Source: an uncultured Clostridia bacterium (GTDB lineage Bacteria; Bacillota; Clostridia; Oscillospirales; Ruminococcaceae). Taken from it: DNA of 64,000 nt. The stretch's first letter is position 1; each line of letters starts with the position of its first letter. The notes under the pieces are model-generated. The model did no database searches. It had not been told where the DNA came from and worked only from the letters and a program-made list of their open reading frames with translations. The stretch spans positions 62,001-126,000 of the forward strand of contig CANRKB010000001.1 in NCBI GenBank assembly GCA_947631115.1, read 5' to 3'. A program made the position numbers and the translations under genes. Shown here piece after piece: positions 2,143 to 60,385 of the stretch.

Positions 2143-4029
2143 ATGGGATTATTGTCGGAAAATAAGCTCCTTATAGAATCGGAAAAAATTTCGGGAAAAG
2201 CAAATAAAAATGTGTTGGGGACAAAAAGACCCAATGCTTCTGTCGGGAAAAACACTCCTGTTCTTAAGAATAAGCCTGTACTCAGAAGCAGAGATAACTT
2301 AAGCTCAAAAGGCTCTGTCTTAAATCAAAGCCAGACCTATGTCCGCAGGACCGTGAGAGAAAAGCCGCGCTCCGCTCCCGTCAGATTTATAGCGCTCGGC
2401 GGGCTTAATGAAATAGGAAAGAACCTCTATGTCTACGAGTGTTCAAACGATATGTTCATAGTCGACTGCGGAATTGCTTTCCCCGATGAAGAAATGCTCG
2501 GAGTAGACCTTGTTGTACCCGATTTCACCTATATCGAAAAGAACAAGGAAAAATTAAGAGGAATTGTCATAACCCACGGACACGAGGATCATATCGGCGG
2601 GCTTCCTTATCTTCTTAAAAAGATAAACGTTCCCGTATACGGAACAAGACTGACTTTAGGGCTTGTCGAGGGAAAACTCAAAGAACACGGGCTGTTATCT
2701 TCCGTTTCGCTCAATGTCGTAGAACCCCGCCAGAATGTCAGAATGGGCTGTATGAGCGTTGAGTTTATCAGGGTCAATCACTCTATCCCCGATTCCTGCG
2801 CGGTGGCTATCCATACTCCCGCGGGCGTTATAGTTCACACGGGCGACTTTAAAGTCGACTATACGCCTATAGAGGGCGGGATAATAGACCTTGCGAGATT
2901 CGGAGAGCTTGGAAACAGAGGCGTGCTTGCGCTTATGAGCGAAAGCACGAATGTAGAGCGCCCGGGTTATACGAAAAGCGAGCGTTCTGTAGGAGAGAGC
3001 TTTCACGGGCTTTTCGACAGGGCGGAAGGCAGAAGAATAATCATCGCGACATTTTCGAGCAATATCCATAGGATACAGCAGATAATAAACGAAGCCGTCA
3101 GACACGGACGCAGGGTCGCAGTTTCGGGAAGAAGCATGACGAACGTTATAGCAAAGGCAGTGGAGCTTAATTATATAAGCGTTCCCGACAACACCCTCAT
3201 TGATATAGACGAGGTAAATAATTACGATCCCGAAGAGCTTGTAATTGCCACAACGGGAAGTCAGGGCGAGCCGCTTTCCGCGCTTTCGAGAATGTCGAGC
3301 GGCGATCATAAGCAGGTCACCATAACCCCCAACGACTTTATAATCATATCCGCAAACCCCATACCGGGAAACGAAAAGCTGGTCACAAAGGTCGTAAACG
3401 AGCTTATGAAGCAGGGCGCGGAAGTTATCTACGAAAGCATGTACGAAGTTCATGTTTCGGGACACGCCTGCCAGGAAGAACTTAAAATGATGATCTCCCT
3501 TACAAAGCCGAAATTCTTTGTTCCTATCCACGGAGAATACAAGCACCTCAAAAAGCATACCGTCTTAGCCCACGGAATGGGTATCCCTGAAAACAACACG
3601 TTTATAGCGGGGCTGGGCGACGTTCTTGAAACGGACGGCGTGGATATGAAATTTGCGGGAGTCGTTCCGAGCGGAATGGTCATGGTAGACGGCTCGGGAG
3701 TAGGCGACGTCGGAAGCGTCGTTCTCCGCGACAGAAAACATCTCTCCGAGGACGGCGTTATAATCGTGGTCGCAACAATCGACCGCGAAAGCGGAAAGAC
3801 CGTCGCGGGTCCCGATATTGTGTCGAGAGGATTTGTCTATGTCCGCGAGAGCGAAGAATTGTTAGATGAGGCAAGAGAGGTCGTAAAGAATATAATGGAC
3901 GATCTTCTCGAAAGAAACGTCCGCGAGTGGGGAAATATAAAGTCTGCCATGCGCGACGGACTTTCGGATTATATCTATTCAAAGACGAAAAGAAGTCCGA
4001 TGATACTTCCGATAATAATGGAGATCTGA
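2143..4029 (+). CDS. rnjA: Ribonuclease J
   Basis: RNase J is a metallo-beta-lactamase/beta-CASP nuclease with endo- and 5'-3' exonuclease activity, central to mRNA decay in Firmicutes. The start chosen is ATG 2143, preceded by AAAGGA with good spacing; an in-frame TTG 18 bases upstream lacks a ribosome site. The 628-residue product has the metal-binding HGHEDH motif at 145-150, a beta-CASP domain in the middle and the C-terminal dimerisation part. About 78 residues precede the conserved core that begins at VRFIALGGLNEIGKN; this basic, low-complexity extension is longer than in most family members (usually about 555 residues in total). Downstream gdpP follows after 32 bp. Confidence 0.95.
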   Translation: MGLLSENKLLIESEKISGKANKNVLGTKRPNASVGKNTPVLKNKPVLRSRDNLSSKGSVLNQSQTYVRRTVREKPRSAPVRFIALGGLNEIGKNLYVYECSNDMFIVDCGIAFPDEEMLGVDLVVPDFTYIEKNKEKLRGIVITHGHEDHIGGLPYLLKKINVPVYGTRLTLGLVEGKLKEHGLLSSVSLNVVEPRQNVRMGCMSVEFIRVNHSIPDSCAVAIHTPAGVIVHTGDFKVDYTPIEGGIIDLARFGELGNRGVLALMSESTNVERPGYTKSERSVGESFHGLFDRAEGRRIIIATFSSNIHRIQQIINEAVRHGRRVAVSGRSMTNVIAKAVELNYISVPDNTLIDIDEVNNYDPEELVIATTGSQGEPLSALSRMSSGDHKQVTITPNDFIIISANPIPGNEKLVTKVVNELMKQGAEVIYESMYEVHVSGHACQEELKMMISLTKPKFFVPIHGEYKHLKKHTVLAHGMGIPENNTFIAGLGDVLETDGVDMKFAGVVPSGMVMVDGSGVGDVGSVVLRDRKHLSEDGVIIVVATIDRESGKTVAGPDIVSRGFVYVRESEELLDEAREVVKNIMDDLLERNVREWGNIKSAMRDGLSDYIYSKTKRSPMILPIIMEI

Positions 4030-4061
4030 CAGGAAAGCCGAATTGAAAAGGCGGTGATGGT

Positions 4062-6125
4062 TTGAGAAATTTTTACAGAAGCAATGTCTTTCTCGCGATA
4101 GTTTGTACGCTTATTGTCGCGGTCATAGTGATAGACGTATATGTTTTCAGACATGAGCCTGTTATTTTCTGGATCTCGCTTCCGCTTCTGCTGGCGGTTT
4201 CGGGCGTGGCTCTGGGAAAACTGTTTCAGATAAGGCAGAGCGAGTTTCGGTATTTTGAACAGCTGTCCGATGAGATACAGGGCGCTCAGAGAAATTCGCT
4301 CGTAGATTTTCCTATGCCCATGGCGATAGTCGACAACAACAGGACCGTTATCTGGAGCAACGACAGCTTCGACGAGGAGTTCTTCACTCCGAGCGAGGAG
4401 CAGTATTCGATAGACGACGTTACGGAAATGCCGCTCGCGCTGTTCGGCTCGGAGGGCAGGGAGATACGCTTCGGGGACAAGTGGTTCAGGGTATACTCAA
4501 ACTCTCATAACTTCAGCGTTGATGAAAAGATACTCAAAAAACAGCTTTTTGAACCCGAACAACCCGAACAGGACAACGAAACGATAACCATGCTCATTTT
4601 CCGCGATATAACCAACTTTAAAAAGCTGAAAATGACGTATGAAAAATCAAAGCCTATCGTTATGATAGTTATGGTAGATAACTATGAGGAGCTGCTTTCG
4701 GGCGCAAAGGAAAGTGAAAGAGCGTATGTCACCATACAGGTAGACAGGCTTATAGAAGAATACTTTGCGGAAAAAAAGGCGGTTTTGAAAAAAATAACGG
4801 GCGACAAATTTCTTATCGTTCTCGAAAGACAATACCTCGATGAAATGATAAGCGAAAAGATGTCGCTTATAAATAAGGCTCACGAAATTATCGTCCGCGA
4901 CAGAGCCGCCGTTACGCTTTCGATAGGCGTGGGAGATACCGCGGAATCATTGGCTCAGGGCGAGAGGTTCGCCAGCGAGATGATAGAAAAGGCTCTCGAA
5001 AGAGGCGGCGACCAGGCGCTTATAAAGACCGCAAACGGCTTTAACGCGTTCGGAGCTGCGTCACCGGGAAGAGAGCGCACGGGAAAGGTAAAGATACGCC
5101 TTGCGGCGGAAAATATCAAAAGCCTTATAAGTACCGCCGATACCGTGTATATAATGGGACATAGCTATGCGGATTTCGACAGCGCGGGCTCGGCGATAGG
5201 ACTTACCTGCGCGATAAGAAGACTGGGCATTCCCGCATATACCGTCGCACGTTTCAGAGATGAATCAAAGACAAACGCAAAAGCCCTTTTCGATAAGTTC
5301 AGCGATTATGACACTTCCGTCGCTATCGAACCCGAGGAAGCGAAAAAATGGATAACGGACAAATCGGTACTTATTGTCGTCGATACGCATATCCTTAAAA
5401 AGCTTGAGGACAAAGAGCTTTACGAAATGGCAAAGAAAAACCGCGTCGTCATAGTCGACCATCACCGACTGAGCGCGGGCGCAATAACCGAGTTCGGCGT
5501 AAGATGCCAGGAAAGCAACGCCTCGTCGGCAGCGGAGCTGGTGACGGAGCTTATACAGTATTTCAGTCCCGACGCGCTAATAAATGCGCGAGAGGCGGAG
5601 GCGCTGCTTGCGGGCATAATGCTCGACACAAAGGACTTTGTCATGCGTTCGGGAGTTTCGACGTTTGAAGCCGCGGCTTATCTTAAAAAGCAGGGCGCGG
5701 ATACTATCTCCGTCAAAAAGCTGTTCGACACGACTATTGAAAACAAGATGAGAAAGGCAAAGATAATTTCTTCCGCAGAGATATACCGCGGAAAATGCGC
5801 TATCTCAAAGGTGAGCGAGAGTTTTTCGGGTCTGCGTATCGTATGCGCGCAGGCAGCGGACGAAATGCTGTATATAAACAGCGTTGACGCGGCGTTTACT
5901 GTCTATCCGATAGAAAACGGCTGGGGAGTGAGCGCGAGGTCTTTAGGAAAAATAAACGTTCAGGTCATCATGGAAAATCTGGGAACAAATCCCGACGACG
6001 GCGGCGGGCATCAGTCGATGGCGGGAGCGCAGCTGTACGGCTGTACGCTCGACGAAGCCTATGACAGCCTTACAAAAGCCATAGACGTATATTTCTCGAA
6101 TGTACCCGAAGAACCTAAAAAATAA
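4062..6125 (+). CDS. gdpP: c-di-AMP phosphodiesterase GdpP (DHH/DHHA1)
   Basis: GdpP hydrolyses cyclic di-AMP and so influences wall homeostasis, potassium and stress responses. The start is TTG 4062, with AAAGGCGGTGA just upstream. The 687-residue protein shows two N-terminal membrane helices (about 8-28 and 32-52), a PAS-like segment, a degenerate GGDEF domain (about 195-330), a DHH domain with ADFDS near 370 and VDHH near 465, and a DHHA1 domain with GGGHQSMAG near 647. Order and length match GdpP of Bacillus. It lies in the conserved setting gdpP-rplI-dnaB, with 24 bp to rplI, so co-transcription is likely. Confidence 0.95.
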   Translation: MRNFYRSNVFLAIVCTLIVAVIVIDVYVFRHEPVIFWISLPLLLAVSGVALGKLFQIRQSEFRYFEQLSDEIQGAQRNSLVDFPMPMAIVDNNRTVIWSNDSFDEEFFTPSEEQYSIDDVTEMPLALFGSEGREIRFGDKWFRVYSNSHNFSVDEKILKKQLFEPEQPEQDNETITMLIFRDITNFKKLKMTYEKSKPIVMIVMVDNYEELLSGAKESERAYVTIQVDRLIEEYFAEKKAVLKKITGDKFLIVLERQYLDEMISEKMSLINKAHEIIVRDRAAVTLSIGVGDTAESLAQGERFASEMIEKALERGGDQALIKTANGFNAFGAASPGRERTGKVKIRLAAENIKSLISTADTVYIMGHSYADFDSAGSAIGLTCAIRRLGIPAYTVARFRDESKTNAKALFDKFSDYDTSVAIEPEEAKKWITDKSVLIVVDTHILKKLEDKELYEMAKKNRVVIVDHHRLSAGAITEFGVRCQESNASSAAELVTELIQYFSPDALINAREAEALLAGIMLDTKDFVMRSGVSTFEAAAYLKKQGADTISVKKLFDTTIENKMRKAKIISSAEIYRGKCAISKVSESFSGLRIVCAQAADEMLYINSVDAAFTVYPIENGWGVSARSLGKINVQVIMENLGTNPDDGGGHQSMAGAQLYGCTLDEAYDSLTKAIDVYFSNVPEEPKK

Positions 6126-6149
6126 GACTGACTAAAGGAGAATAGGTTT

Positions 6150-6602
6150 ATGAAAGTTATTTTGCTTGCAGACGTAAACGGAACTGGGAAAAAAGGCGAG
6201 ATCAAAGAAGTAAAGGACGGCTACGCGATAAACGGACTTATCAGAAAGGGTCTTGCACAAGAAGCCACCCCGCAGAATCTTAACCTTTTAAAGGGTCAGC
6301 AGGACGCGGCTCAGCATAAGATCGACGTTGAAAAAGCCAATGCAAAGGCTATAGCCGAAAAGCTCGAGGGAAAGACCGTCTGCGTAAAAGCAAGAGCGGG
6401 ACAGAACGGAAGACTTTTCGGAACGGTAACTTCAAAGGAAGTTTCTGCGGAAATAAAGAAATCTTTCGGCGTAGACGTAGATAAGAAAAAGATAAACATT
6501 CCCATGAAGATAGAGGGCTTCGGGGTTTATTCCGTTGAAGCGAAGCTTTATGCGGGAATATCGGCTAAGTTTTCCGTTGAGGTAGCGGAGGAGGCGAAAT
6601 AA
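6150..6602 (+). CDS. rplI: 50S ribosomal protein L9
   Basis: L9 binds 23S rRNA at the base of the L1 stalk and helps keep the reading frame. The 150-residue product starts [17 protein letters not shown], typical of the N-terminal RNA-binding domain, followed by the long connecting helix and the C-terminal domain. The start ATG has AAAGGAG upstream. Its stop codon TAA overlaps the ATG of dnaB (TAATG), so the two genes are translationally coupled, as in many Firmicutes. Confidence 0.97.
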
Positions 6603-7969
6603 TGTCTGCCGCTGATTTTGAGGGAATAAATCTCCCGTGTAATATCGGAGCGGAAAAGTCCGTTTTGGGGTGCGTATTTGCGGACAACAGCCGAAAAGGC
6701 GTTTTGAGCGAGGTAATAGGGAGTCTTCGCGCGGAGCATTTCTATGTAGAACTGCACGCAAGTATCTACGGCGTTATGTCAAGGTTGTATCTCGCGGGTT
6801 CACGACTTGACACGCTGGTTATACTCAACGAATGTATAAAAGAGGGAATATTTGAAAACGAAGAAGAAGCCGCTTCCCGCGCAAAAGAGTTTCTGGACGC
6901 GGCTCCGAGTTATTCCGCTATAACCGCATACGCAAAGATAGTAATAGAAAAATATATGCTCCGAAGCCTTATACTTGCCGCAAACGATATAATAAAATCG
7001 GCAAGCTCCGAAACGGACGGCGCGGATAAAGCGTTAGACCTTGCGGAGCATAAGATATACGACATAAGGGCGGGCGAAGAAGACAGAAGCCTTACGCATA
7101 TAAGCGGAATAGTTTTCGAGAGGATAAAAGACCTGACGGAGCTTGCAAAAGAGTCCGCCAGAAACAACGGAAAGCCCGTGCTTAAAGGTTTTGAAACGGG
7201 ATTTTCGGAGGTCGATAAAAAGCTCTTCGGATTAAACGCTTCGGACCTGCTCATCCTTGCGGCAAGACCGGGAATGGGAAAAACGTCGTTTGCCATGAAT
7301 ATAGCCGTAAATGTTTCCAAAAAATACCGCGACAGGACGGTCTGCGTATTCAGCCTCGAAATGTCAAAAGAACAGCTTGTTGCGAGAATGATCTCCTCCG
7401 AGGCGCTCCTTTCGTCCGAGTCAATGAAAACGGGAATTATCTCAAACGATAAATGGTCAAGCATAACCGAAGCCGCCGACGTTTTGTCTCAGCTTCCGAT
7501 ATACATTGACGACACTCCCGTTTGCAGCGTTACTTCGGTAAAATCAAAGCTCAGAAGAATAAAAGGTCTCGGGCTTGTAGTCATAGATTATCTTCAGCTT
7601 ATGACTTCCGTAAATGATTACCACGGAAACAGAGTAGCCGAGATTTCTGAAATAACCAGAGATCTGAAAGTGCTTGCAAAAGAGCTGAACGTGCCCGTAA
7701 TAGTCCTTTCCCAGCTTGCAAGAGGAGCCGAGAAGCGCGAGGATAAGCGTCCGCTTTTGTCAGACCTCAGAGATTCGGGTTCTATAGAGCAGGACGCGGA
7801 TATAGTTATGTTTTTATATAGGGACAGCTATTACGACCCTACAAATCCGAACAGGGAACTATGCGAATGTAATATAGCCAAAAACCGCCACGGCGAAACA
7901 GGCGTCGCAAAAATAGGCTGGAAGGGCGAGTATACAAAGTTTGTAAATGTTGAATTCAAGCAGGCTTGA
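6602..7969 (+). CDS. dnaB: Replicative DNA helicase DnaB/DnaC
   Basis: This is the hexameric 5'-3' helicase of the replication fork (called DnaC in Bacillus). The 455-residue protein has the N-terminal primase-interaction domain beginning with LPCNIGAEKSVLG, followed by a RecA-fold motor with P-loop ARPGMGKTS at about 221-229 and a Walker B region VVIDYLQLM near 325. The terminal GWKGEYTKFVN is usual. A GGAGGAGG ribosome site lies inside rplI. No intein interrupts the P-loop. tilS follows after 6 bp. Confidence 0.97.
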   Translation: MSAADFEGINLPCNIGAEKSVLGCVFADNSRKGVLSEVIGSLRAEHFYVELHASIYGVMSRLYLAGSRLDTLVILNECIKEGIFENEEEAASRAKEFLDAAPSYSAITAYAKIVIEKYMLRSLILAANDIIKSASSETDGADKALDLAEHKIYDIRAGEEDRSLTHISGIVFERIKDLTELAKESARNNGKPVLKGFETGFSEVDKKLFGLNASDLLILAARPGMGKTSFAMNIAVNVSKKYRDRTVCVFSLEMSKEQLVARMISSEALLSSESMKTGIISNDKWSSITEAADVLSQLPIYIDDTPVCSVTSVKSKLRRIKGLGLVVIDYLQLMTSVNDYHGNRVAEISEITRDLKVLAKELNVPVIVLSQLARGAEKREDKRPLLSDLRDSGSIEQDADIVMFLYRDSYYDPTNPNRELCECNIAKNRHGETGVAKIGWKGEYTKFVNVEFKQA

Positions 7970-7975
7970 GAAAAA

Positions 7976-8965
7976 ATGGATCTGATTGAAAGTGCAAAAA
8001 CGGTTTTTTTCGGGAAAAATATTCTCGATGAAACAAAAACTGTAGTCTGCGCGCTTTCGGGCGGCGCAGACAGTACCGCGCTCCTTATCGTTTTAAAAGA
8101 GCTTTCGGGTGAAAAGGGCTTTAAGCTCGGAGCTTGTCATTTAAACCACGGACTCCGCGGTGAAGACAGCGACGGGGACGAGCGGTTCTGCGCCGAGCTT
8201 TGCGAAAAAATGGGCGTGGAGCTTTACAGGAAAAAGGTCTGCGTTAAAGACCTTATCGAAAAGCACGAAAGTTTGGAAGAAGCGGCAAGAAAGGTGCGAT
8301 ACGAGTTTTTTGAAGAAGCAAGAGAACATTTCGGAGAAAATTCCTATATCGCTACCGCTCATAACGCAAACGACAACGCCGAAACCGTCCTTTTCAATAT
8401 GATAAGAGGCACGGGGCTTAAAGGTCTTTGCGGAATACCGCCCTTTAGGGATAGGATAATCCGCCCGCTTATATACGTGAGCAGGAGCGAAATAGAACAG
8501 TTTCTCAAAGAGCGCGGTCAGACGTATGTCACCGACAAGACAAATTTTTCCGAGGAGATTACAAGAAACAGGATAAGGCTGAAAATACTTCCCGAAATGA
8601 TGAAGATAAATCCGTCGGTTTTGGGAACAATATCAAGAATGACAAAAAACCTCCGAAGCGACAGCGACCTTCTCGAAGAAATGTCTGAAGACGTTTTGAA
8701 AAACGCAAAACGCAATAACGGTTTTGAAGCGTCCGAGATAGATAAACAAAGTTATCCGATAAAGAGCAGAGCCGTAAGGAAGATATTGATAAACGGCGGC
8801 GTTGAGCCGTCGGCGCTTAGAATAAAAACGGCGCTTTCTTTGCTCTCAAAACGCAGCGCCAGATATAATCCCTGCAAAAACAAGTTCTTTACAATAAGAA
8901 AAGGCATTTGCTTTGTGGAAAATATTGAACAGAAATTCGGCGGTTTTAACGAAAAGCACGCTTGA
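7976..8965 (+). CDS. tilS: tRNA(Ile)-lysidine synthase, short form
   Basis: TilS makes lysidine at position 34 of the minor tRNA-Ile, letting it read AUA; this matters here because ATA is a very common Ile codon in the window. The N-terminal PP-loop SGGADSTALL (about 29-38) binds ATP, and CHLNHGLRG follows at about 52-60. With 329 residues it is much shorter than the Bacillus enzyme (about 470) and resembles the short type that lacks most of the C-terminal domains. It is followed by hpt, a common Firmicutes pairing, although a 227-bp gap with its own promoter separates them. Confidence 0.92.
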   Translation: MDLIESAKTVFFGKNILDETKTVVCALSGGADSTALLIVLKELSGEKGFKLGACHLNHGLRGEDSDGDERFCAELCEKMGVELYRKKVCVKDLIEKHESLEEAARKVRYEFFEEAREHFGENSYIATAHNANDNAETVLFNMIRGTGLKGLCGIPPFRDRIIRPLIYVSRSEIEQFLKERGQTYVTDKTNFSEEITRNRIRLKILPEMMKINPSVLGTISRMTKNLRSDSDLLEEMSEDVLKNAKRNNGFEASEIDKQSYPIKSRAVRKILINGGVEPSALRIKTALSLLSKRSARYNPCKNKFFTIRKGICFVENIEQKFGGFNEKHA

Positions 8966-9022
8966 GTGTTGAAAACTATTGTATACAGCAAGGAAATTTC
9001 AGCAAATATTCATAAAATAGGT

Positions 9023-9051
9023 TTGCAATTTTTATCTTCTTATGATATAAT
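9023..9051 (+). promoter_or_regulatory. Sigma-A-like promoter for hpt
   Basis: TTGCAA (9023-9028) and TATAAT (9046-9051) are 17 bp apart. The -10 box is part of a palindrome with 13-bp arms (9045-9057 and 9060-9072), so a repressor or a stem at the RNA 5' end could act here. Confidence 0.7.
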
Positions 9052-9172
9052 AATCGCAGGCGATTATTATATGCTTATGTCCACGCACATCCGCAAAATT
9101 TTTTCAAAATTTTGCTCCGTGCGGTAATGGACAATTATATCATAAATTCTTGCGAATTTATGATATAATAAT
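9041..9172 (+). repeat. Palindrome-rich hpt leader bounded by 14-bp direct repeats
   Basis: The direct repeat TATGATATAATAAT occurs at 9041-9054 and 9159-9172. Between the copies lies a nested hairpin: TGTCCA/TGGACA (9078-9083 with 9128-9133), then GCAC/GTGC, then GCAAAATTTT/AAAATTTTGC. A palindrome with 16-bp arms (9134-9149 with 9154-9169, loop TTGC) contains the right repeat. The layout could be a small miniature-element insertion or a structured 5' leader of about 130 nt. No coding sequence is present. Confidence 0.7.
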
Positions 9173-9192
9173 TTGAAGTAGGAGGAAAACAT

Positions 9193-9720
9193 ATGTTTTT
9201 TCCGAACGAGGTTGAACGCGTACTCTACAGCGAGGAGCAGATAAAAGCCCGCGTAAAGGAAATGGGCAAGCTCCTTACAGAAGAATACGCCGATAAGAAT
9301 CCTCTGTTTTTGTGCGTACTGCGCGGAGCGAGCGTTTTCTTCTGCGATCTGATAAGGAGCGTCGAGTGTCCGCTTGAGATAGATTTCATCAGAGCGAAAA
9401 GCTATGTAGGAACAAATTCGAGCGGCAATGTCGAAGTAGAGGGCGATCTTTCAAAAATTTCGGGACGTGACGTCGTTATAGTCGAGGACATCGCAGATAC
9501 CGCGAGAACGCTTTCAAAGCTCAAAGAGCTTCTGCTCCGGAAAAATCCGAAATCGCTTAAAACGGCGGTCTTTCTCGACAAGCCCTCAAGGCGCGTTATA
9601 AAAGACTTTAAAGCCGACTATACGGGCTTTGAGATAGAGGATCTCTTTGTGGTGGGATACGGTCTTGACTGCGACGATAAATTCAGAAATCTTCCGTATA
9701 TCGGAGTTATAAAAAGTTAG
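9193..9720 (+). CDS. hpt: Hypoxanthine(-guanine) phosphoribosyltransferase
   Basis: The enzyme salvages hypoxanthine and guanine with PRPP to IMP and GMP. The 175-residue protein has the PRPP-binding motif VVIVEDIADTART near 95-107 and the flexible loop region KSYVGTNSSG near 76-85. GYGLDCDDKFRNLPYIG is the family C-terminal signature. The ATG has a strong GGAGGAAAAC site. Its usual neighbours tilS and ftsH flank it. ftsH starts 120 bp downstream. Confidence 0.95.
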   Translation: MFFPNEVERVLYSEEQIKARVKEMGKLLTEEYADKNPLFLCVLRGASVFFCDLIRSVECPLEIDFIRAKSYVGTNSSGNVEVEGDLSKISGRDVVIVEDIADTARTLSKLKELLLRKNPKSLKTAVFLDKPSRRVIKDFKADYTGFEIEDLFVVGYGLDCDDKFRNLPYIGVIKS

Positions 9721-9840
9721 GTACATAAATTTCAGGCTGCGTATAAAGCCCGAGCTTTAGGGGCGGTCTGCGATCTTTCGGCTGCGGATGTTCGCGGCTT
9801 GTAAATATAAATTCACGCGTAATGCGGAAAGGCGGTTTAA
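9721..9840. other. hpt-ftsH spacer with partial repeat
   Basis: This gap contains the segment CAGGCTGCGTATAAAGCCC (9733-9751). It resembles the left end of the branched hairpin at 43698-43804 and of a sequence at 31924-31954. No promoter was recognised. The ftsH ribosome site AAAGGCGG ends the gap. Confidence 0.35.
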
Positions 9841-11778
9841 ATGAAGAAAAATAAGCTTACGGGCGTAATAATCTACTTCGTGATAATTTTACTTCTTATC
9901 TTCGGAGTAGTTTCCGTTTTGAATATGGTAAGCGGAAACTCGAGGAGAGACGCAGTGTCGTATTCGGATATTATTTCCGAGTTTGATAATTTGAACGTTT
10001 CAAAATATGAACTGGATCTCGGAAGCGGACTTCTCAGATATTATCTCAAGGGAACGGAAAACGATCCCCAGCAGATAAAAACTTACAGCGTTCCGAACGT
10101 AAATATATTCTTAAACGATATAAACAGCGGGTATAACAAAGACGGAAAAATGGCGAATTATCGCGTGAGGTATAACGAGGCGAACCCCGATAATCACCTT
10201 GTCGAAAATTATATCCCCATTTCCGATAATTCATTCTGGCTCAATCTCCTGCCGTATCTGTTTCTTGTTCTCGTAATGGTAGTATTCACCATTGTTATTT
10301 TCAGGCAGACAACGGGCGGCGGAAAGATGAACACTTTCTCCCGCGCGAACGTTCGTCAGATGACGGGAAAGAAAGTCACTTTCAATGACGTAGCTGGCGC
10401 TGACGAGGAAAAGCAGGAGCTGGTTGAGATCGTCGATTATCTGAAAAATCCCGGAAAATACCGCGAGATAGGCGCAAGAGTTCCTAAGGGCGTTCTGCTC
10501 GTAGGACCTCCCGGAACAGGTAAGACGCTGCTTGCAAAGGCAGTCGCAGGAGAAGCCGACGCGCCGTTCTTCTCTATTTCGGGTTCGGATTTCGTAGAGA
10601 TGTATGTCGGCGTCGGAGCGTCGCGTGTGCGCGATCTGTTCGACCAGGCGAAAAAGCATACTCCCTCCATTATCTTCATAGACGAAATAGACGCGGTAGG
10701 ACGCCAGCGCGGCGCGGGTCTCGGCGGCGGTCACGACGAGCGAGAACAGACGCTGAACCAGCTGCTCGTTGAAATGGACGGCTTTACCGAAAACGAAAAC
10801 ATCATAGTTATGGCGGCTACCAACAGGCGCGATATTCTCGACCCCGCGCTTATGCGTCCCGGACGTTTCGACAGACAGGTAGTGGTAAGCTACCCCGATA
10901 TAAAAGGACGCGAGGAAATACTCAAAGTCCACACCAGAAACAAGAACATCGGTCCCGATGTCGACCTTAAAACCATCGCCGCAACAACGGCGGGCTTTAC
11001 GGGAGCGGATCTTGAAAACCTCGTAAACGAGGCGGCGCTGCTTGCGGCAAGAAAGAACAAGCGCGCTATAACCAAGGAAGAAATAGAAGAAGCTACTATA
11101 AAGGTAGTCGCAGGTCCCGAAAAGAAGTCAAAGGTCGTATCCGACGATGAAAAGCGCCTCACCGCATATCACGAGGCAGGTCACGCAATTACGACTTATT
11201 TCTGCAAGACGCAGGATAAAGTACACCAGGTGTCAATTGTTCCGCGCGGTTCTGCGGGAGGATTTACAATGCATCTTCCCGAAAAGGACAGAAGCTTTAT
11301 CTCAAAGACTTATATGGAAGAAGAGATAATTGTCCTGCTAGGAGGACGCGCGGCGGAAAAGCTCATACTTGACGATATTTCTACGGGCGCGTCAAACGAC
11401 ATCGAACGCGCAACGGGCGTTGCGCGCGACATGGTAATGCGCTACGGCTTCTCCGAAAAGCTTGGTCCTATTCTTTACGGAAACGCCAGCCACGAGGTAT
11501 TCCTCGGCAGAGATTATTCTCAGGGCAAGAATTATTCCGAAAACGTCGCTTCCGAGATAGACGCGGAAATACGCGAGCTTATCGAAACAGGCTATGAAAA
11601 GGCAAAGGATATTCTTTCGGTACACGGAGATATGCTTGAAAAATGCGCGCAGTATCTGATGAAGCACGAAAAGATAAACGGTCCCGATTTCTATAAACTT
11701 ATGGCGGGAGAAATAACCATAGACGGCGAAAAGGTCGAGCTTGAAAAGAATCCGACCGACGCTGACGGCGAAGAATAA
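9841..11778 (+). CDS. ftsH: ATP-dependent zinc metalloprotease FtsH
   Basis: FtsH is a membrane AAA+ protease for quality control of membrane and regulatory proteins. The 645-residue protein has two membrane helices (about 8-28 and 133-155) around an extracytoplasmic domain. Walker A GPPGTGKT lies at 222-229, Walker B is FIDEIDAVG near 280, and the SRH region contains [19 protein letters not shown]. The zinc site HEAGH is at 444-448. Length and order are typical. A hairpin downstream probably ends or attenuates transcription. Confidence 0.97.
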
Positions 11779-11782
11779 AAAA

Positions 11783-11817
11783 TTCGGAGCTAATGAGCAA
11801 AACTCATTAACTCCGAA
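11783..11817 (+). terminator. Probable terminator/attenuator after ftsH
   Basis: A 35-nt hairpin has arms TTCGGAG-c-TAATGAG and CTCATTA-a-CTCCGAA (two 7-bp helices, one mismatch, CAAAA loop). It is followed by AATTGTTT rather than a clean T-run, so termination may be partial. Confidence 0.55.
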
Positions 11818-11846
11818 ATTGTTTAAAATAAGAAAGGCAGAGGGAT

Positions 11847-12266
11847 ATGATAGAATACATAGACAAAGCTCCGACGCTTGAAGAATATAAGGAAATGCGC
11901 CGGGCGGTAAACTTTATAGTATTGTCCGACAGGATAGCCAAAAACGCCTTAAACAACGCGTTTCATATAACCACCGTCCGCGATAACGGCAGAGCCGTAG
12001 GAATGATAAGAGTGCTTTCCGACGGCAGCTACGCAAATTTCATAACCGATGTAATGGTCATTCCCGAATACCAGCACAAAGGTATCGGAACGACGATGAT
12101 GAAGCGGACAATGGATTTTATGTACGGCACGCTTGAAGAGGGCGAAACTATCATACTTTACCTTATGTCCGCGTCGGGCAAAGAGCCTTTTTATAAACAA
12201 TTCGGCTTTCGCGAGCGCCCTAATAACGACTGGGGAGCAGGCATGAGCCAGTGGATCACTAAATAA
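11847..12266 (+). CDS. GNAT-family N-acetyltransferase
   Basis: This is a 139-residue single-domain GNAT protein. The acetyl-CoA pyrophosphate loop is visible as YQHKGIGTTMM (about 73-83), matching Q/R-x-x-G-x-G/A. The PFYKQFGF segment near 115 is the usual strand 6/7 region of small GNATs. The substrate cannot be deduced. It starts at ATG with GAGGG upstream, 68 bp after ftsH and beyond the hairpin. It could be transcribed by read-through. Confidence 0.85.
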   Translation: MIEYIDKAPTLEEYKEMRRAVNFIVLSDRIAKNALNNAFHITTVRDNGRAVGMIRVLSDGSYANFITDVMVIPEYQHKGIGTTMMKRTMDFMYGTLEEGETIILYLMSASGKEPFYKQFGFRERPNNDWGAGMSQWITK

Positions 12267-12303
12267 ATTTTGTGCATTATTTTCATGGTATGTGAAATAA
12301 TCC

Positions 12304-12332
12304 TTGACAAAAGCTTATTGTTATGCTATAAT
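12304..12332 (+). promoter_or_regulatory. Consensus sigma-A promoter
   Basis: TTGACA (12304-12309), 17 bp, TATAAT (12327-12332): a perfect match. It drives the zinc-ribbon membrane protein, with a leader of about 75 nt that includes GTGGCATTGCCAC, a small inverted repeat. Confidence 0.9.
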
Positions 12333-12414
12333 ATTTAAGATAGGGAAGTGTGGCATTGCCACGAGGCTTTGTTTTTTATACATTGCGGAAATTTCAGTTA
12401 AAGAGAGGTAAATT

Positions 12415-12972
12415 ATGGAAAGATTTTGTCCTACTTGCGGTTCTCTTGTACAGGGAGACGGGGATTTTTGCCCTTCGTGCGGTGCAAAGCTCGGCGGAGC
12501 GGTAAACCTTGAAAAGCCGATAACATCGCAGCCTACTACGGGCGGAAGTATGCCTGACACGTCAAGCAGCAATCTGAATAACCAGAGCAACATGAACAAT
12601 CAGAACAATCAGAGCGGCAATTATTCACAAATGCCGAATTATCCTCAGAATTTCAGTTCGGGCAATTATAGCGCACCCGCGGAAGAAATGTCTGTAGGTC
12701 AGTGGGTGCTTACGATTTTCCTTTCGGGACTCGGTATAATCGGAATTATACTTTTGTTTGTATGGGCGTTCGGCTCCGATAACAATACCGCGAGGAAAAA
12801 TTATGCGCGCGCAATGCTTATCTGGGAAGCAATTGCGTTGGGATTGATAATATTGATCTACGGCGGTTTGTGCATTTGCGGAATGTCGCTGGGCAATATG
12901 TTCGGCGGTTCTTATAGCGACATATATGATAATCTGAATTATTATACATCCACATTGTTTATGGGAATGTGA
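12415..12972 (+). CDS. Zinc-ribbon membrane protein of unknown function
   Basis: The family is not recognised. The 185-residue protein opens with a zinc ribbon (CPTCG near 5-9, CPSCG near 22-26), continues with an Asn/Gln/Ser-rich flexible stretch (about 50-90), and ends in two hydrophobic helices (about 100-122 and 135-155). Similar zinc-ribbon plus membrane proteins are common and poorly characterised in Clostridia. The AGAGAGG ribosome site and perfect promoter suggest strong expression. A second zinc-ribbon membrane protein is encoded convergently just downstream (13167-14708), so the two may be functionally related. Confidence 0.8.
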   Translation: MERFCPTCGSLVQGDGDFCPSCGAKLGGAVNLEKPITSQPTTGGSMPDTSSSNLNNQSNMNNQNNQSGNYSQMPNYPQNFSSGNYSAPAEEMSVGQWVLTIFLSGLGIIGIILLFVWAFGSDNNTARKNYARAMLIWEAIALGLIILIYGGLCICGMSLGNMFGGSYSDIYDNLNYYTSTLFMGM

Positions 12973-12974
12973 TT

Positions 12975-13083
12975 CTAGAGGCTAGAAATTAAGATGCTAG
13001 AGGCTAGAGTTGTAATTAAGACGTTATTTGCTAACTTTAACGTATAAAAGAAATAAGAGGCTGGGGTTTAAACTCTAGCCTCT
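12975..13083. repeat. TAGAGG-type intergenic repeats and hairpin
   Basis: Two copies of CTAGAGGCTAGA (12975-12986, 12997-13008) are followed by the hairpin AGAGGCTGGGG/CTCTAGCCTCT (13056-13083). The same word family starts the large repeats at 15.9, 28.4 and 56.7 kb and forms hairpins at 31.8 and 32.8 kb, so it is a dispersed repeat rather than a gene-specific sequence. Confidence 0.75.
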
Positions 13084-31385: not shown

Positions 31386-31735
31386 GGGGTCGTAAAGGCT
31401 TCGACGGGGATCCTGATGCATGATAAGCGAGCGGTGCGGGCGAAGCACCAAAATAGCGCAAACTTAAATTTAAACGCAGACGAAGATCTCGTTTTAGCAG
31501 CTGCCTAAGCGCGCTGCCGTCAACCTCTGCTTTACTGCGGGCAGAGCTTTGACGTCGGATAGCAGTGAACGTCTTCGGCGAGTTGTCTTGCAGCCGTTGA
31601 CGTACCAAAGACTACCAAATCCGAAAGCCTGTCTGTCGGCGCTCGGATAAGGGAATTTTAAACGACTGACTGCGCTCGGAGAAAGTTGTGAGGACGGGTT
31701 TTCGGACAGGGGTTCAATTCCCCTCGGCTCCACCA
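31386..31735 (+). ncRNA. ssrA: Transfer-messenger RNA (tmRNA)
   Basis: tmRNA rescues stalled ribosomes and tags the peptide for proteolysis. The 5' end GGGGTCG pairs with CGGCTCC at the 3' end, followed by an encoded CCA at 31733-31735. A T-arm GGTTCAATTCC lies at 31711-31721. The tag frame starts at GCA 31458 and reads ANLNLNADEDLVLAAA, ending at TAA 31506-31508. The hydrophobic Ala-rich end is the usual degradation signal. It is the one-piece type, about 350 nt. An antisense frame over its 3' half (MVEPRGIEPL...) is a well-known spurious protein. Confidence 0.97.
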
Positions 31736-54721: not shown

Positions 54722-54803
54722 CGGATAAGTAGTAAAAAGGTCTTGATGATATTTCGACAGGATATATCTGCAAATAAAATATATGTGTGATCGGAGGAAA
54801 GTT

Positions 54804-55655
54804 ATGGACAAAAAACTTGTAAGGGAGCTTGAAATTGACGCGGCAAAAATACGAATAGGCATAATCGAGGGCGTCTATAACGCAAAGTGCGGACACCCCG
54901 GCGGCGCGCTGTCTATAGCGGACGTGCTGGCTTATCTGTATAAACACCGCCTTAATGTCGACCCGAAAGACCCGAATAGCCCTACACGCGACAGAATGGT
55001 CTTGTCAAAAGGACACTCTGCGCCTGCGCTGTATGCGGCTTTGGCGCTTAGAGGATTTTTCCCGTTTGAAACGCTGAAAACATTGCGCCAAAGCGGCTCT
55101 ATGCTGGAGGGACACCCCGACTGTAACAAGGTTCCCGGGATTGACGCAAGCACGGGTTCGCTCGGTCAGGGATTTTCTCAGGCTTGCGGAATGGCGCTCG
55201 CGGGAAAAATATCCTGCGACAGCTATAAGGTGTACACCATTTTAGGCGACGGAGAAATTCAGGAGGGCATGGTATGGGAAGCCGCTATGTTCGCTTCTCA
55301 TTATAAGCTCGATAATCTCGTAGCGATAATTGACAACAACGGACTTCAGATAGACGGAAAACTCAGCGAGGTCATGTCGCCTTATCCCATAGACGAAAAA
55401 TTCGAGTCATTCGGCTGGAATGTTATCACAATAAACGGACACGATTTTTCACAAATGGAAAAGGCGTTCGACGCGGCGGAGAGGGTTATTGAAAAGCCGA
55501 CGCTCATTATTCTTAAAACGACAAAAGGAAAGGGCGTCGATTATATGGAAAACGCCGTTGAGTGGCACGGAAAAGCTCCGGGCGAAGAGGACTATCTGCG
55601 TGCGATAAAACAGCTTCGCGAACATCTTGAAGAGCTTGAAGGGGGCGTTGAATAA
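54804..55655 (+). CDS. Transketolase, N-terminal (TPP) subunit
   Basis: Split transketolases transfer two-carbon units between sugars in the non-oxidative pentose phosphate pathway. The start is ATG 54804 with GGAGGAAAG upstream. The 283-residue protein has the TPP motif GDGEIQEG ... NNG (about 146-175) and HPGGALS. It overlaps the C-terminal subunit by one base (TAATGG), so equal synthesis is likely. Confidence 0.95.
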   Translation: MDKKLVRELEIDAAKIRIGIIEGVYNAKCGHPGGALSIADVLAYLYKHRLNVDPKDPNSPTRDRMVLSKGHSAPALYAALALRGFFPFETLKTLRQSGSMLEGHPDCNKVPGIDASTGSLGQGFSQACGMALAGKISCDSYKVYTILGDGEIQEGMVWEAAMFASHYKLDNLVAIIDNNGLQIDGKLSEVMSPYPIDEKFESFGWNVITINGHDFSQMEKAFDAAERVIEKPTLIILKTTKGKGVDYMENAVEWHGKAPGEEDYLRAIKQLREHLEELEGGVE

Positions 55656-56593
55656 TGGCAGAACTAACCAGACGCGCGACGCGCGAGGGCTATGGCGACG
55701 GACTTTGCGAGCTGGCGGAAATTCGCCCAGACCTGCTTGTTCTTGACGCGGACTTGTCGGCTGCGACAAAGACGTCGGTGTTTAAAAAGGCTTATCCCGA
55801 AAAGCATTTCAATTGCGGAATTTCCGAGCAGAATATGATGGGAGTTGCGTCGGGACTTGCTTCGACGGGAAGGCTTGTGTTTGCAAGCTCGTTTGCAATG
55901 TTCGCTGCGGGAAGAGCATTTGAGATAATCAGAAATTCTATTGCATATCCGCGCGTAAATGTAAAGATAGGCGCGACGCACGGCGGAATATCGGTAGGCG
56001 AGGACGGAGCTACGCATCAGTGCTGCGAGGACGTGGCAATTATGAGAGCACTCCCAAATATGACAGTCATAGTTCCGGCGGATTATTACGAGGCAAAAGC
56101 GGCTGTACTTGCTATGGCTGATTTCAACGGTCCGACATATCTGAGGTTTGGAAGACTTGCGGTTCCTATGTTTAATACGCCCGACTATAAGTTCGAGCTA
56201 GGAAAAGGCGTTACGGTAAAGGACGGAAAGGATATAACCATAATCGCGAGCGGGCTTATGGTTGCGGAAGCAATGGACGCGGCGCAGGCTCTTAAAGAGA
56301 CGGGAATAGACGCGCGCGTTATAAATATCCACACGATAAAGCCGATCGACCGAGATATAATCGTAAAAGCCGCAAGGGAAACGGGAAAGATAATAACGGT
56401 CGAAGAGCATAGCGTTATAGGCGGTCTGGGTTCGGCAGTGGGAGACGTTGTACTTGAAGAATATCCTGTGCCGGTGATAAAGATCGGAATAAACGACGTG
56501 TTCGGACATAGCGGACCTGCAAAGGTGCTGTTAAAGGAGTTCGGACTTTCTGCGGAGAATATAGTAAACGTCGTAAAGGCGAACGTAAAATAA
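55655..56593 (+). CDS. Transketolase, C-terminal subunit
   Basis: The 312-residue protein has the pyrimidine-binding domain (CGISEQNMMG) and the transketolase C domain (TVEEHSVIGGLGSAV), the second half of the split enzyme. Both halves together have normal length. The multi-hairpin repeat C starts at the stop codon. Confidence 0.95.
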   Translation: MAELTRRATREGYGDGLCELAEIRPDLLVLDADLSAATKTSVFKKAYPEKHFNCGISEQNMMGVASGLASTGRLVFASSFAMFAAGRAFEIIRNSIAYPRVNVKIGATHGGISVGEDGATHQCCEDVAIMRALPNMTVIVPADYYEAKAAVLAMADFNGPTYLRFGRLAVPMFNTPDYKFELGKGVTVKDGKDITIIASGLMVAEAMDAAQALKETGIDARVINIHTIKPIDRDIIVKAARETGKIITVEEHSVIGGLGSAVGDVVLEEYPVPVIKIGINDVFGHSGPAKVLLKEFGLSAENIVNVVKANVK

Positions 56594-57045: not shown

Positions 57046-57137
57046 CAGCAGTAACAATGAAGCAAACCACATTTGCTCCCTATCTTCGCCAAATGGATAT
57101 AATTTGTTCAAAAATTGTACAAAATTGATAAAAGATA

Positions 57138-57166
57138 TTGACACAGAGGAAATTTTATTGTATAAT
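57138..57166 (+). promoter_or_regulatory. Consensus sigma-A promoter of the FtsK-like gene
   Basis: TTGACA (57138-57143), 17 bp, TATAAT (57161-57166), a perfect match, about 45 nt before the start codon. Confidence 0.93.
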
Positions 57167-57217: not shown

Positions 57218-60200
57218 ATGGCTGATTTGATTAGTGAAATGCTTGGTAAATTTGCGGAGTTGGCTCAGGAAGAAAAGAATATCAACAGCGATATTGATAA
57301 AGCCTTAAAGGAATATAATGATTATTGCAAATCATCCGATGAGGATTTGAACAGAAAACTTGAAGAGATCCGCGGCAAGATCAGAAAAGTTTCCGAGTAT
57401 ATGCAGTATGCCCGCGAACACGCGACCGACCTCGAAGAAGCGCAGATGCCTTTTGAAACGTCCGAGGGTTCTCTCGAAAGTATTCGTCAGACCATAAAGC
57501 TCGATTCGCATAACGACCCGAACGCCGAGTCGCTCTATACAAAGGCGTCGGGGCAAAAGCTGTTTTACGAAGCCGAAATGGAGCGCACCAGAAAGCTCAT
57601 AGAGGGCAGTAAGGTTCAGGCGAAGCGCCAGTATGACAGCGACGTTGCGGCGCTTGAGGGCAGAAAAGAACAGCACGATAAAGACCTCCATGCTTATGTC
57701 CTGTCCGAGGATTTCAAGCGCTATCTCCAGCTGCTTTCGTTCGACAAGTCCGCATTCAACAGCCAAACCACCGTAAATCTCATAGACAAGAGCAAGATTT
57801 CCATCGGTCAGCGCAGGATACGTTTTTCCGTGCCAATGGAGGTAGAACAGGATCTGACGACCGTTTCGGGCGGCGAGTATAATGCCGCTTCGAGAACTAT
57901 CGGCGCGCCTTTCGGAGTTTCAACTCAGGAGGGCAGCGTTCTTATGCTCGAATATGACGACAGAAACCGGGCTTATCTTATGGGCGGCGTAGAAAGACTG
58001 CTGCTCAATTTTATAAAGTATTGCGGACAGAACATAACCGATATGGTTTATTTCGACGATACTCCGAATTCCGTCGAAAATCTTGAAATTATGTCAATGT
58101 TTGCCAGGGGCATAAATTCGTTTATAGTAGCTCCCCAGTCGCCCGTTGAAGCAAACAGCAAAATGGCTGAGCTTTATTCGCAGATAAAGGAAACGCCTAC
58201 GCCCGATTGCGTTACGAGAATTATCGTGCTTCGCGGTTTCCCCGAAGAGTTCAGCTCCGAGTTTTCCGCACAAGTCCTCGAGCTTGCCAAAGACGCAAAG
58301 CAGAGCGGAGTTTTGCTGGTAGTTATACATAACGGCACAACTCCCGACACCGATACCGTTACAGAGCTTCGCAGCATTGCTGCTACTATCCGCAGCAGAA
58401 ACGGAAGTTTTTATATCGACAATACCCGCGAGAGCCTTTTCTGGTATTCAAAACCTACGGATATTCCCGACAACATTCGCAGAACTTATGTAGAACAGCG
58501 CAGAATGGCGGCTGTCGCTAAGCCTGCTCCGCAGACAGCGCCTACAGTCCAACCTGTTGCTCCGACCGTTCAGCCCGTTGTACAGCCGGTACAGCCTGCT
58601 CCCGCGGCACAACCCGTACAGCCTGCCGCACCTGCCGTTGAGCCTGTTCAGCCTGCAGCTGTCGAACCTGTTCAACCCGCACAACCTGTTCAACCCGTCG
58701 AAGTTGAACCCGTACAGCCCGTACAACCCGCAGAAGTTGAACCTGTTCAGCCCGTACAACCTGTTGAGCCTGCACCCGTTGACGAAAAGCCCGCCGAGGC
58801 GCCTGTTGAAGAGGCAAAGCCAGAAGAGCCGAAGAAAGAGAGCAGCAAGGGCTTGCGCGTTGTTCCGAAGATCGTATTCGGAGCTGACGAAAAGGGTCTT
58901 GATATAAGCGGAAACGTTGCGTATATCTGCGGTAAGAACGGCGAAGATAAAACAAAGATAGTAAAGGCGGTCATAGATCAGATTGTTTCAAAGACCCACC
59001 CTGACAGCGCGGAACTTTGGCTGTTTGATAACGACGGAAGCATTATAAGCCTTGTTGACCCCGAGTGTCCGCATATAAAATACGCCGTTTCCGATGAAAA
59101 CGACGAAACTGCCGCAGATCTTATAGAGCTTCTAATAAAAGAAAAAGCGTCGCGCGCCGAGCTGTTCGGTGAAAAGAATTATGCAGATTACAGCGCCGTA
59201 CCCGCCGATGTTTATCTTCCGAGAGTAGTTGCGGTAATAAGCGACTTTACCGATTTCCTGAGGTCGATAGACCGCGTTCCGAAGTATTTGGGCAGAGACT
59301 TTAGACGTTCGCTTGAAAGCCTGTTTAAGAATTGCGCCGATTACGGAATAAATATCGTGCTTGTAGGAAACACGTTCTCCGAAAACGGAAAAGCTCCCGA
59401 TGTGTTCGTAAACGGCATAAAGTGCGCCGCGGCGATACCCGGAAAAGAAAAGGCGCTCGAAACGCTGTTCGGCTATAAGGCGGGAATAATTCACGACAGA
59501 TTTGTGCTTGTTTCGGGAAGCAACGTTGCCATAAGAATAAATGTTCCCGCACAGGGAGAAGCGAAGAATTACGTTTTGTCATACGAGTATGACGACAACC
59601 CCGAAAATTATCTCGGAAAGCGTCCGCTTATAGCAGACAGGAGAGCTTCAATTCCGTTCGGCGACCGCAGTTCTGCGCGCTCGGAGCTAATCTCCCAGAA
59701 AGAAAACAACGAGCTTATGCTGTTTTTGGGCGAGCCGAGCAAGGTGGCGGCAAACGCTCCTATGATACTTCGCGCGGGCTATGGAGAAAACGTTCTGGAG
59801 CTTGCGCCAAAGGGATATGCAAAGCCTGCGGCAATGACCGTTGCGGCGGCGCTTAGATCGCTCGAAGAGCAGGGCGTTCCTGCGGAAATAATTGCGGCAA
59901 AAGACGACCCCGTTTATTCCGAGCTTTATGCAAGCGGATTGCTTAATGATGTTAAGGTAAGCGACCGCGGCCGCATAAAAGAGCTTGCGGACAACGCTGA
60001 AAACGAGCTTTTGATTATACTTGGCGGGGATGTGCTTATGGCGGCGCTCCATGCGGAAGACCAGAACGCCGCGGCTGATCTTAAAAAGCTTCTTGTAAAG
60101 GGAGCAAAGAACGGACTTCGCGTTATGTTTGTATGCACGAGCGCAAGCCAGATGCAGGCGGGCTTCCTGTCGCTGTTCAGACATAAAGCGGTGTTCCCGT

Positions 60201-60316
60201 GCCCCGAAGCCGAAGCGGAAAAATTGCTCCAAAGCTGTGACTGCTGCCTTATGAACAATGAGTTCAGAATAAGCACGGACGGTGAAGAGTATACCGCGGT
60301 TCCTTATAAAATTTAG
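57218..60316 (+). CDS. Large FtsK/SpoIIIE-like protein with degenerate ATPase motifs
   Basis: The 1032-residue soluble protein has an N-terminal coiled coil (about 1-175), a first FtsK-like part without a P-loop (about 180-430), a low-complexity linker of VQP repeats (about 435-540), a second FtsK-like domain (about 545-800) and a third alpha-beta part (about 828-1032). In the second domain the P-loop position reads GKNGEDKT (about 572-579) and Walker B reads AVISDF, while the order of FtsK landmarks (DPECPHIKYAVSD, RAELF, LPRVVAV) is kept. ATP hydrolysis is doubtful. No membrane helix, ESX or WXG100 gene is nearby. It is a lone gene with its own promoter and terminator. Confidence 0.7.
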   Translation: MADLISEMLGKFAELAQEEKNINSDIDKALKEYNDYCKSSDEDLNRKLEEIRGKIRKVSEYMQYAREHATDLEEAQMPFETSEGSLESIRQTIKLDSHNDPNAESLYTKASGQKLFYEAEMERTRKLIEGSKVQAKRQYDSDVAALEGRKEQHDKDLHAYVLSEDFKRYLQLLSFDKSAFNSQTTVNLIDKSKISIGQRRIRFSVPMEVEQDLTTVSGGEYNAASRTIGAPFGVSTQEGSVLMLEYDDRNRAYLMGGVERLLLNFIKYCGQNITDMVYFDDTPNSVENLEIMSMFARGINSFIVAPQSPVEANSKMAELYSQIKETPTPDCVTRIIVLRGFPEEFSSEFSAQVLELAKDAKQSGVLLVVIHNGTTPDTDTVTELRSIAATIRSRNGSFYIDNTRESLFWYSKPTDIPDNIRRTYVEQRRMAAVAKPAPQTAPTVQPVAPTVQPVVQPVQPAPAAQPVQPAAPAVEPVQPAAVEPVQPAQPVQPVEVEPVQPVQPAEVEPVQPVQPVEPAPVDEKPAEAPVEEAKPEEPKKESSKGLRVVPKIVFGADEKGLDISGNVAYICGKNGEDKTKIVKAVIDQIVSKTHPDSAELWLFDNDGSIISLVDPECPHIKYAVSDENDETAADLIELLIKEKASRAELFGEKNYADYSAVPADVYLPRVVAVISDFTDFLRSIDRVPKYLGRDFRRSLESLFKNCADYGINIVLVGNTFSENGKAPDVFVNGIKCAAAIPGKEKALETLFGYKAGIIHDRFVLVSGSNVAIRINVPAQGEAKNYVLSYEYDDNPENYLGKRPLIADRRASIPFGDRSSARSELISQKENNELMLFLGEPSKVAANAPMILRAGYGENVLELAPKGYAKPAAMTVAAALRSLEEQGVPAEIIAAKDDPVYSELYASGLLNDVKVSDRGRIKELADNAENELLIILGGDVLMAALHAEDQNAAADLKKLLVKGAKNGLRVMFVCTSASQMQAGFLSLFRHKAVFPCPEAEAEKLLQSCDCCLMNNEFRISTDGEEYTAVPYKI

Positions 60317-60352
60317 TTGTAAAAACAAAAGAAAAGGGTTTATATACGAACT

Positions 60353-60385
60353 GAGATCCCCCACATTTGTGGGGGATCTCGTTTT
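60353..60385 (+). terminator. Strong intrinsic terminator
   Basis: GAGATCCCCCACA (60353-60365) pairs perfectly with TGTGGGGGATCTC (60368-60380), followed by GTTTT. It isolates the FtsK-like gene from the convergent pepV. Confidence 0.9.

Follow-up and report, generated by a model that had tools for sequence, protein, structure and literature searches.

The window analysed here, a 64,000-nucleotide stretch of contig CANRKB010000001.1 from an uncultured Clostridia bacterium, harbours a gene encoding a 1032-residue protein, which we term pseudo-FtsK. The protein consists of an N-terminal helical region and three FtsK-like modules, none of which carries an intact P-loop. Comparison with other FtsK-type proteins supports an ancestry of all three modules in the FtsK superfamily, as well as the loss of the catalytic residues. 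We propose, with moderate confidence, that pseudo-FtsK is a cytosolic pseudo-ATPase descended from a three-module EssC-like FtsK, which would act as a non-motor scaffold or adaptor. The gene and the regions of its product are as follows.

57218..60316, forward strand: pseudo-FtsK gene; ATG start, open reading frame (ORF) of 1032 residues; 28 of the 37 genus genomes have an orthologue
57218..57772, forward strand: residues 1-185, N-terminal helical/coiled-coil region; heptad periodicity in residues 2-70, pairwise identity 0.68
57773..58507, forward strand: residues 186-430, FtsK-like module 1 without P-loop; from hhalign to nine relatives
58508..58849, forward strand: residues 431-544, Pro/Val/Gln/Glu-rich linker of variable length
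58850..59593, forward strand: residues 545-792, FtsK-like module 2 with degenerate Walker A and B; from hhalign and a motif table
59594..60313, forward strand: residues 793-1032, FtsK-like module 3 without P-loop; from hhalign to nine relatives

Periodicity analysis of the N-terminal region revealed a 3.5-residue repeat in residues 2-70 that none of 500 column shuffles equalled; it is absent from residues 101-175, where 184 of 500 shuffles scored as high. The linker contains up to 30% proline over 60 residues, partly encoded by a 33-bp tandem repeat of 2.8 copies, and ranges from 88 to 349 residues among 21 homologues. There is no evident membrane helix in the window protein, the highest 19-residue Kyte-Doolittle mean being 1.25, and no Pfam match to FHA up to an E-value of 10. 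The coiled coil, the roughly 100-residue VQP linker, the missing P-loop of the first FtsK-like half and the absence of a visible membrane helix had all been described in the original prediction, and all of them hold.

The 21 homologues are aligned species of one uncultured Clostridia genus, in each of which the frame is open. The alignment omits G008, G010, G018, G025, G027, G032 and G033, whose copies are fragments, contig-split or frame-split. At another locus (L042, 7505-11612), the homologue is broken into two overlapping frames inside the linker, owing to a frameshift or an assembly error. In module 2 of the window protein, GKNGEDKT stands in place of the P-loop and VVAVISDF in place of Walker B, in agreement with the predicted GKNGEDKT and ISDF. 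None of the 21 homologues has an intact Walker A at this position; the sole match to the pattern G....GK[ST], in L033, falls elsewhere in the protein. The glycine preceding the Walker A lysine is replaced by Asp or Glu in 19 of 21, the lysine position itself is Arg in 17 and Lys in four, and the subsequent Ser/Thr is a Thr in seven. The remodelled loop has the form CGxxGx[DE][RK], with the Cys and the first Gly each present in 20 of 21. As the [DE][RK] pair recurs across the homologues, it represents a conserved replacement, which may form a salt bridge filling the pocket. At the Walker B Asp position we found Asn in 13, Ser in seven and Asp in one, which means that the Asp is lost in 20 of 21, whereas the next residue is Glu in five, Asp in 11 and another residue in five. 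Judged from these motifs, the protein would have no ATPase activity.

A rather unlikely alternative is that pseudo-FtsK works as a nucleotide-sensing switch, in which the remodelled P-loop still binds, and perhaps slowly hydrolyses, nucleotide. The Walker A loop is indeed not random, because its Cys, Gly, acidic (19/21) and Arg/Lys (21/21) positions are conserved in the new form, and low-millimolar ATP binding to the D3 domain of EssC has been reported by others, as cited in a passage of PMC11154593. However, the phosphate-loop glycine is now acidic, and neither the Thr after the lysine nor the Walker B Asp is generally kept. Moreover, the degenerate DUF domain of EccC5 is described in the same source as showing no ATP binding by differential scanning fluorimetry and isothermal titration calorimetry. 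We prefer a non-motor scaffold or adaptor, the ancestry of which was traced by profile comparison.

Search against Pfam gave FtsK_SpoIIIE a score of 18.6 bits on the window protein, under the curated cut-off of 24; the C-terminal halves of 12 of the 21 homologues match this family at E ≤1, with a best value of 9.4e-5. The best NCBIfam match is EssC (E 1.1e-5), at 23 bits compared to a cut-off of 778, and the defence-system model mad8 matches at E 7e-5, confined to residues 552-615. A profile of the C-terminal half finds FtsK/EccC structures in the PDB, with a best whole-sequence E-value of 1.3e-6, and a profile of the N-terminal half gave no match there below E 0.6. A tblastn search with the window protein found nothing in phages and gave two weak matches in plasmids, and a scan of viral contigs found no relative; prophage or plasmid cargo was rejected on these results. 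The plasmid search led to a Rhodococcus FtsK/SpoIIIE protein adjoining TerD genes, which formed the first profile of relatives together with four more plasmid proteins (five in all). Modules 1, 2 and 3 match this profile in order, at 94.0, 99.0 and 95.1%, respectively. In a control for module 1, 20 column shuffles scored at most 24.1, compared to 63.6 for the real profile; reversed profiles scored about 20 or less, and an unrelated profile was also at background.

The relatives' profile was run against 295 genomes of the order, among which it matched 10 at E <1e-35, two of them (G303 and G150) over most of its length. Four proteins encoded by these genomes, L108, L109, L111 and L112, were added to give nine relatives; L111 and L112, which match the relatives' profile around module 2 only, were included by eye for their length and layout. 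We excluded the plasmid proteins L094 and L095 (1431 and 1474 residues), both placed beside EssC in the tree, as well as L110 (761 residues, P-loop at residue 159) and the FtsK-like L113. Alignment to the nine relatives using hhalign gave 96.6% for module 1 (E 6.3e-10), 99.5% for module 2 (E 4.3e-22) and 97.0% for module 3 (E 1.1e-10), and a joint profile of modules 2 and 3 aligned over 493 columns at 99.8% (E 4e-30). The FtsK-superfamily ancestry and degenerate modules that had been predicted are supported. The family's own modules resemble one another weakly (44% for 1 with 2, 2% for 1 with 3, and 13% for 2 with 3). In a tree of module 2, from which three near-copies were omitted, 18 family rows form one clade with support of 97/89.

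Compared to the nine relatives, better-known members of the superfamily resemble pseudo-FtsK in module 2 only. The housekeeping FtsK matches module 2 at 97.3%, but modules 1 and 3 at only 1.4% and 0.6%; in addition, pseudo-FtsK lacks the intact Walker motifs and any evident transmembrane domain of FtsK/SpoIIIE translocases. The genome of the window has only two FtsK-family loci, namely the pseudo-FtsK gene and one intact housekeeping FtsK. Pseudo-subunits that keep their fold can enter rings, and pseudo-FtsK might hence poison mixed oligomers and so regulate the housekeeping FtsK or another RecA-type ring; given that modules 1 and 3 lack profile similarity to the housekeeping FtsK, we consider this improbable.

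Similarly, pseudo-FtsK shares with EssC/EccC of type VII secretion the tandem arrangement of FtsK modules, some of them degenerate, and its module 2 matches the D2 domain of EssC at 98.1%. Together with the top NCBIfam match, this could point to a divergent type VII secretion ATPase or a partner of one, which we nevertheless regard as very improbable and set aside. Modules 1 and 3 match EssC at only 7.4% and 1.0%, no FHA or transmembrane part is evident, and the genome, which is 96% complete, has neither a WXG100 match nor a second FtsK-type locus besides the housekeeping FtsK. Moreover, an EssC-like locus exists separately in the sister species G017. This locus (L116, G017:C5), which was considered as a closer intact relative inside the genus and turned out to be EssC-like, lies on a different contig from the pseudo-FtsK gene, and by eye its gene encodes a transmembrane-like stretch and has two small WXG-like neighbours. 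The descent of pseudo-FtsK is better accounted for by the nine relatives, with which it shares three modules in order.

The relatives lack a P-loop in modules 1 and 3, as pseudo-FtsK does, but all nine retain GK[ST] and the D-E pair in module 2, in contrast to an intact Walker A in 0 of 21 in our family. The conservation of the modules is also reversed. In the relatives, the mean pairwise identity is 0.325 for module 2 versus 0.16-0.19 elsewhere, whereas in the 21 family members it rises from 0.41 for module 2 to 0.48 for module 3, 0.56 for module 1 and 0.68 for the coiled coil. Only the order of these values is comparable, because divergence is much greater among the relatives and module 2 helped to retrieve them; the order is unchanged for the more distant family pairs (165 of 210). 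As module 2 is intact and best conserved in the nine relatives, but dead and least conserved here, pseudo-FtsK appears to be a genus-specific derivative minus the last active motor, which was probably lost once before the genus radiated.

Among the relatives, L112 adjoins Pkinase, VWA, PP2C and WXG100-like genes by Pfam (WXG100 below its cut-off), L109 adjoins kinase and PP2C genes by Pfam, and L091 has VWA, WXG100, PP2C and kinase neighbours by annotation. Hsp70 genes neighbour L108 (Pfam) and L090 (annotation), and no neighbour of L092, L093 or L111 was identified as kinase, PP2C, VWA, WXG100 or Hsp70. The L112 locus (3767-12998), found in a genome of this order, constitutes a TerY-P-type operon, in which the EssC-like FtsK gene, its module 2 intact, is followed by genes for two small proteins (one of them WXG100-like), a kinase, a VWA protein and a PP2C.

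According to passages of PMC11090510 on TerY-P triad/type III-A CoCoNuT operons, these encode an EssC-like FtsK with three ATPase domains of which only the central one is active, with an N-terminal coiled coil, no transmembrane domains and two WXG100 proteins alongside; an earlier description in TerY-P operons is credited there to Anantharaman 2012. WxG and FtsK genes are likewise said to accompany the TerY-P triad in a passage of PMC4978471. From their layout and neighbours, the nine relatives probably belong to this coiled-coil type. The claim that inactive FtsK/EccC modules are known only as parts of membrane complexes is thus not borne out as worded, as a soluble coiled-coil type has already been described. 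Despite sharing the coiled coil, the absence of a transmembrane helix and three ordered modules with this type, pseudo-FtsK differs in the inactive module 2 and in the linker between modules 1 and 2, in which proline reaches 30% of 60 residues compared to maxima of 8-17% in the nine relatives. The N-terminal 185 residues are also unrelated by profile, and pseudo-FtsK is found in one genus only.

We searched for orthologues in 61 genomes, comprising 37 of the genus (the own genome included) and 24 others of the order. Matches were found in 30 genomes, and an orthologue in 28 of the 37, one of them represented by just 35 residues at the edge of a contig; G007 and G055 gave weak matches, to other proteins, and the other eight genus genomes have no match to the window protein. 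Searching with a profile of the N-terminal half detected the protein family in three of the 394 order genomes, three of the 197 from the taxonomic family and one of the 398 from the phylum, samples that overlap. Leaving aside a 41-column match in G644 (E 0.003) in the phylum sample, all matches come from the own genome and two further members of the genus. The seven named loci come from uncultured Clostridia and Oscillospiraceae metagenome-assembled genomes.

The ratio of nonsynonymous to synonymous substitution rates (dN/dS), calculated by the Nei-Gojobori method for seven species pairs, ranges from 0.02 to 0.28 per region, indicating purifying selection in every region. The values are 0.02-0.06 for the coiled coil, 0.05-0.16 for module 1, 0.12-0.28 for the linker (one value undefined), 0.07-0.20 for module 2 and 0.06-0.14 for module 3, the ratios of two pairs being rough because their dS is near or above 1. 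The mean column identity across the 21 species is 72% for the N-terminal half and 54% for the C-terminal half. The ORF at 57218-60316 is a real gene and not a decaying pseudogene, which the dN/dS well below 1 between species and the open frames rule out. A recently inactivated gene or functionless remnant of a mobile TerY-P-type element, as the lost catalytic residues, the missing operon partners and the genus genomes without an orthologue might suggest, is barely credible against this selection, the open frames in 21 species, the well-conserved N-terminal half and the conserved promoter.

These features led us to the following model for the scaffold or adaptor. The ancestor would be a three-module EssC-like FtsK of TerY-P/CoCoNuT-type operons with only module 2 active. 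The module 2 motor would then have been lost, the usual operon partners no longer lying beside the gene, and the strongest constraint would have shifted to the coiled coil and module 1, with all modules still under purifying selection. We propose that partner binding falls to the coiled coil and module 1, whereas modules 2 and 3 may supply an FtsK-like oligomer or a docking surface, and that the linker joins the two halves. The scaffold role, the oligomer and the partners are conjectural steps of this model. For roughly half of the sister loci, the best candidates for partners would be the HPt-like protein and the REC-HD-GYP response regulator whose genes lie just 3' of the pseudo-FtsK gene.

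These two candidates emerged from the neighbourhoods of 19 sister loci, several of which are cut by contig ends. Ten of them have a REC-HD-GYP gene following in the same orientation, nine with an HPt-like gene in between. The two REC-HD-GYP proteins that were tested each have Response_reg and HD_5 matches, the HD part presumably being of the HD-GYP type. Of two HPt-like proteins tested, one falls just under the Pfam Hpt cut-off and the other has no match; all seven aligned HPt-like proteins conserve NAH-x-x-KG, which we take to be the phosphoacceptor motif. The other recurrent clusters nearby are a Mur ligase, an M20 peptidase and a VanY-type lipoprotein, the one tested of which has the VanY domain PF02557. 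No WXG100, VWA, PP2C or kinase was found among the recurrent clusters, a check that covered clusters in at least four loci. It is tentatively possible that, in part of the genus, the dead three-module FtsK has turned into a pure scaffold serving as the hub of an HPt/REC-HD-GYP phosphorelay with cyclic-di-GMP output. The description of the gene as lone fits the window species, where it forms its own unit, but not the sister loci with a following REC-HD-GYP gene. A check for co-occurring neighbours, proposed along with the prediction, gave this linkage, but co-occurrence with HPt itself is not significant (9/16 versus 1/7, Fisher p 0.089, at a threshold chosen afterwards).

Besides this p-value, several observations weigh against a scaffold of the proposed descent. 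The HPt and HD-GYP genes are not linked in the window's own clade, and the own genome has only a weak HPt homologue (E 1e-11). By profile, the N-terminal 185 residues do not resemble the relatives (0.1%), and only module 2 matches L112 alone, with modules 1 and 3 at 0.2% and 1.1%. In the heptad test, only L091 among the nine relatives gives a clear signal, a level that 3 of 200 shuffles reached, compared to 40-185 of 200 shuffles in the other eight, and a shared coiled coil therefore rests on the published description; the hydropathy maxima of the nine relatives, 1.36-1.93, do not establish their solubility. The tree backbone does not separate a placement of module 2 near the relatives from one near EssC D2 or FtsK, and the sisters G010 and G025 just exceed the Pfam FtsK cut-off (26 and 25.7 bits with neighbouring stretches). 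As a basic residue is kept at the Walker A lysine position throughout, phosphate or nucleotide may still be bound. Finally, nine of 37 genus genomes lack an orthologue, five of them at least 90% complete, which makes the gene dispensable.

The transcription signals and flanks of the gene were analysed as well, the former being listed here.

57138..57166, forward strand: sigma-70-type promoter TTGACA-17-TATAAT, 12/12 match
57115..57133, forward strand: conserved element TTGTACAAANNTNATAAAA, 4 bp 5' of the -35 box
60352..60381, forward strand: intrinsic terminator-like hairpin of 13 pairs

The perfect promoter and the terminator agree with the predicted transcription unit of its own in the window species. 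The promoter is perfect in 18 of 21 loci, has one mismatch in two and was not found in one; its distance to the ATG among the 18 perfect loci is 225 bp in one and 37-120 bp in the rest. The element TTGTACAAANNTNATAAAA is exact in 13 of 21 loci and has at most one mismatch in 17, one of which departs from the 4-bp spacing to the -35 box; it might be an UP element or a regulator or operator site. Together with the -35 box, the TTGTACAA-containing element occurs in the own genome only once without mismatch and once more with three mismatches, and a regulon sharing the upstream element was accordingly rejected. Perfect promoters with 17-nt spacing are not unique to the gene: five occur in the window, at 1774, 12304, 29106, 31330 and 57138, one of which precedes the tmRNA gene (31386-31735) by about 27 bp, and sites with at most one mismatch number seven, compared to 0.24 expected. 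The impression of a highly expressed gene is upheld only in part, as its codon adaptation ranks 13 of 47 window ORFs when 20 ORFs from around the ribosomal-protein genes, taken without curation, serve as reference.

Upstream of the gene, Pfam identified a signal peptidase II, a pseudouridine synthase, a HAD hydrolase and two transketolase halves, and downstream, on the opposite strand, an M20 peptidase, a Mur ligase and a NUDIX protein. The transketolase at 54783-56593 consists of two adjacent ORFs, an N part of 290 residues and a C part of 312 residues. These eight flanking window genes are all of ordinary housekeeping types, and in contrast to the coiled-coil EssC-like FtsK loci, none of them encodes a VWA, kinase, PP2C or WXG100 protein by Pfam.

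Pseudo-enzymes are well known among kinases. Our literature search turned up no FtsK-type protein that is soluble and inactive in every module, a result that does not establish its absence from print. The predicted novelty of a soluble scaffold of dead motors thus narrows to the loss of the last active module, as the coiled-coil soluble type with inactive modules 1 and 3 is itself already known. Altogether, most sampled species of the genus keep a soluble-looking FtsK-like protein without an intact motor under purifying selection. Compared to the intact relatives, conservation is reversed between the motor and the coiled coil, which provides a natural test of which parts work without ATP. A function for the coiled coil and the inactive modules might thereby become easier to find in the TerY-P/CoCoNuT-associated relatives as well.

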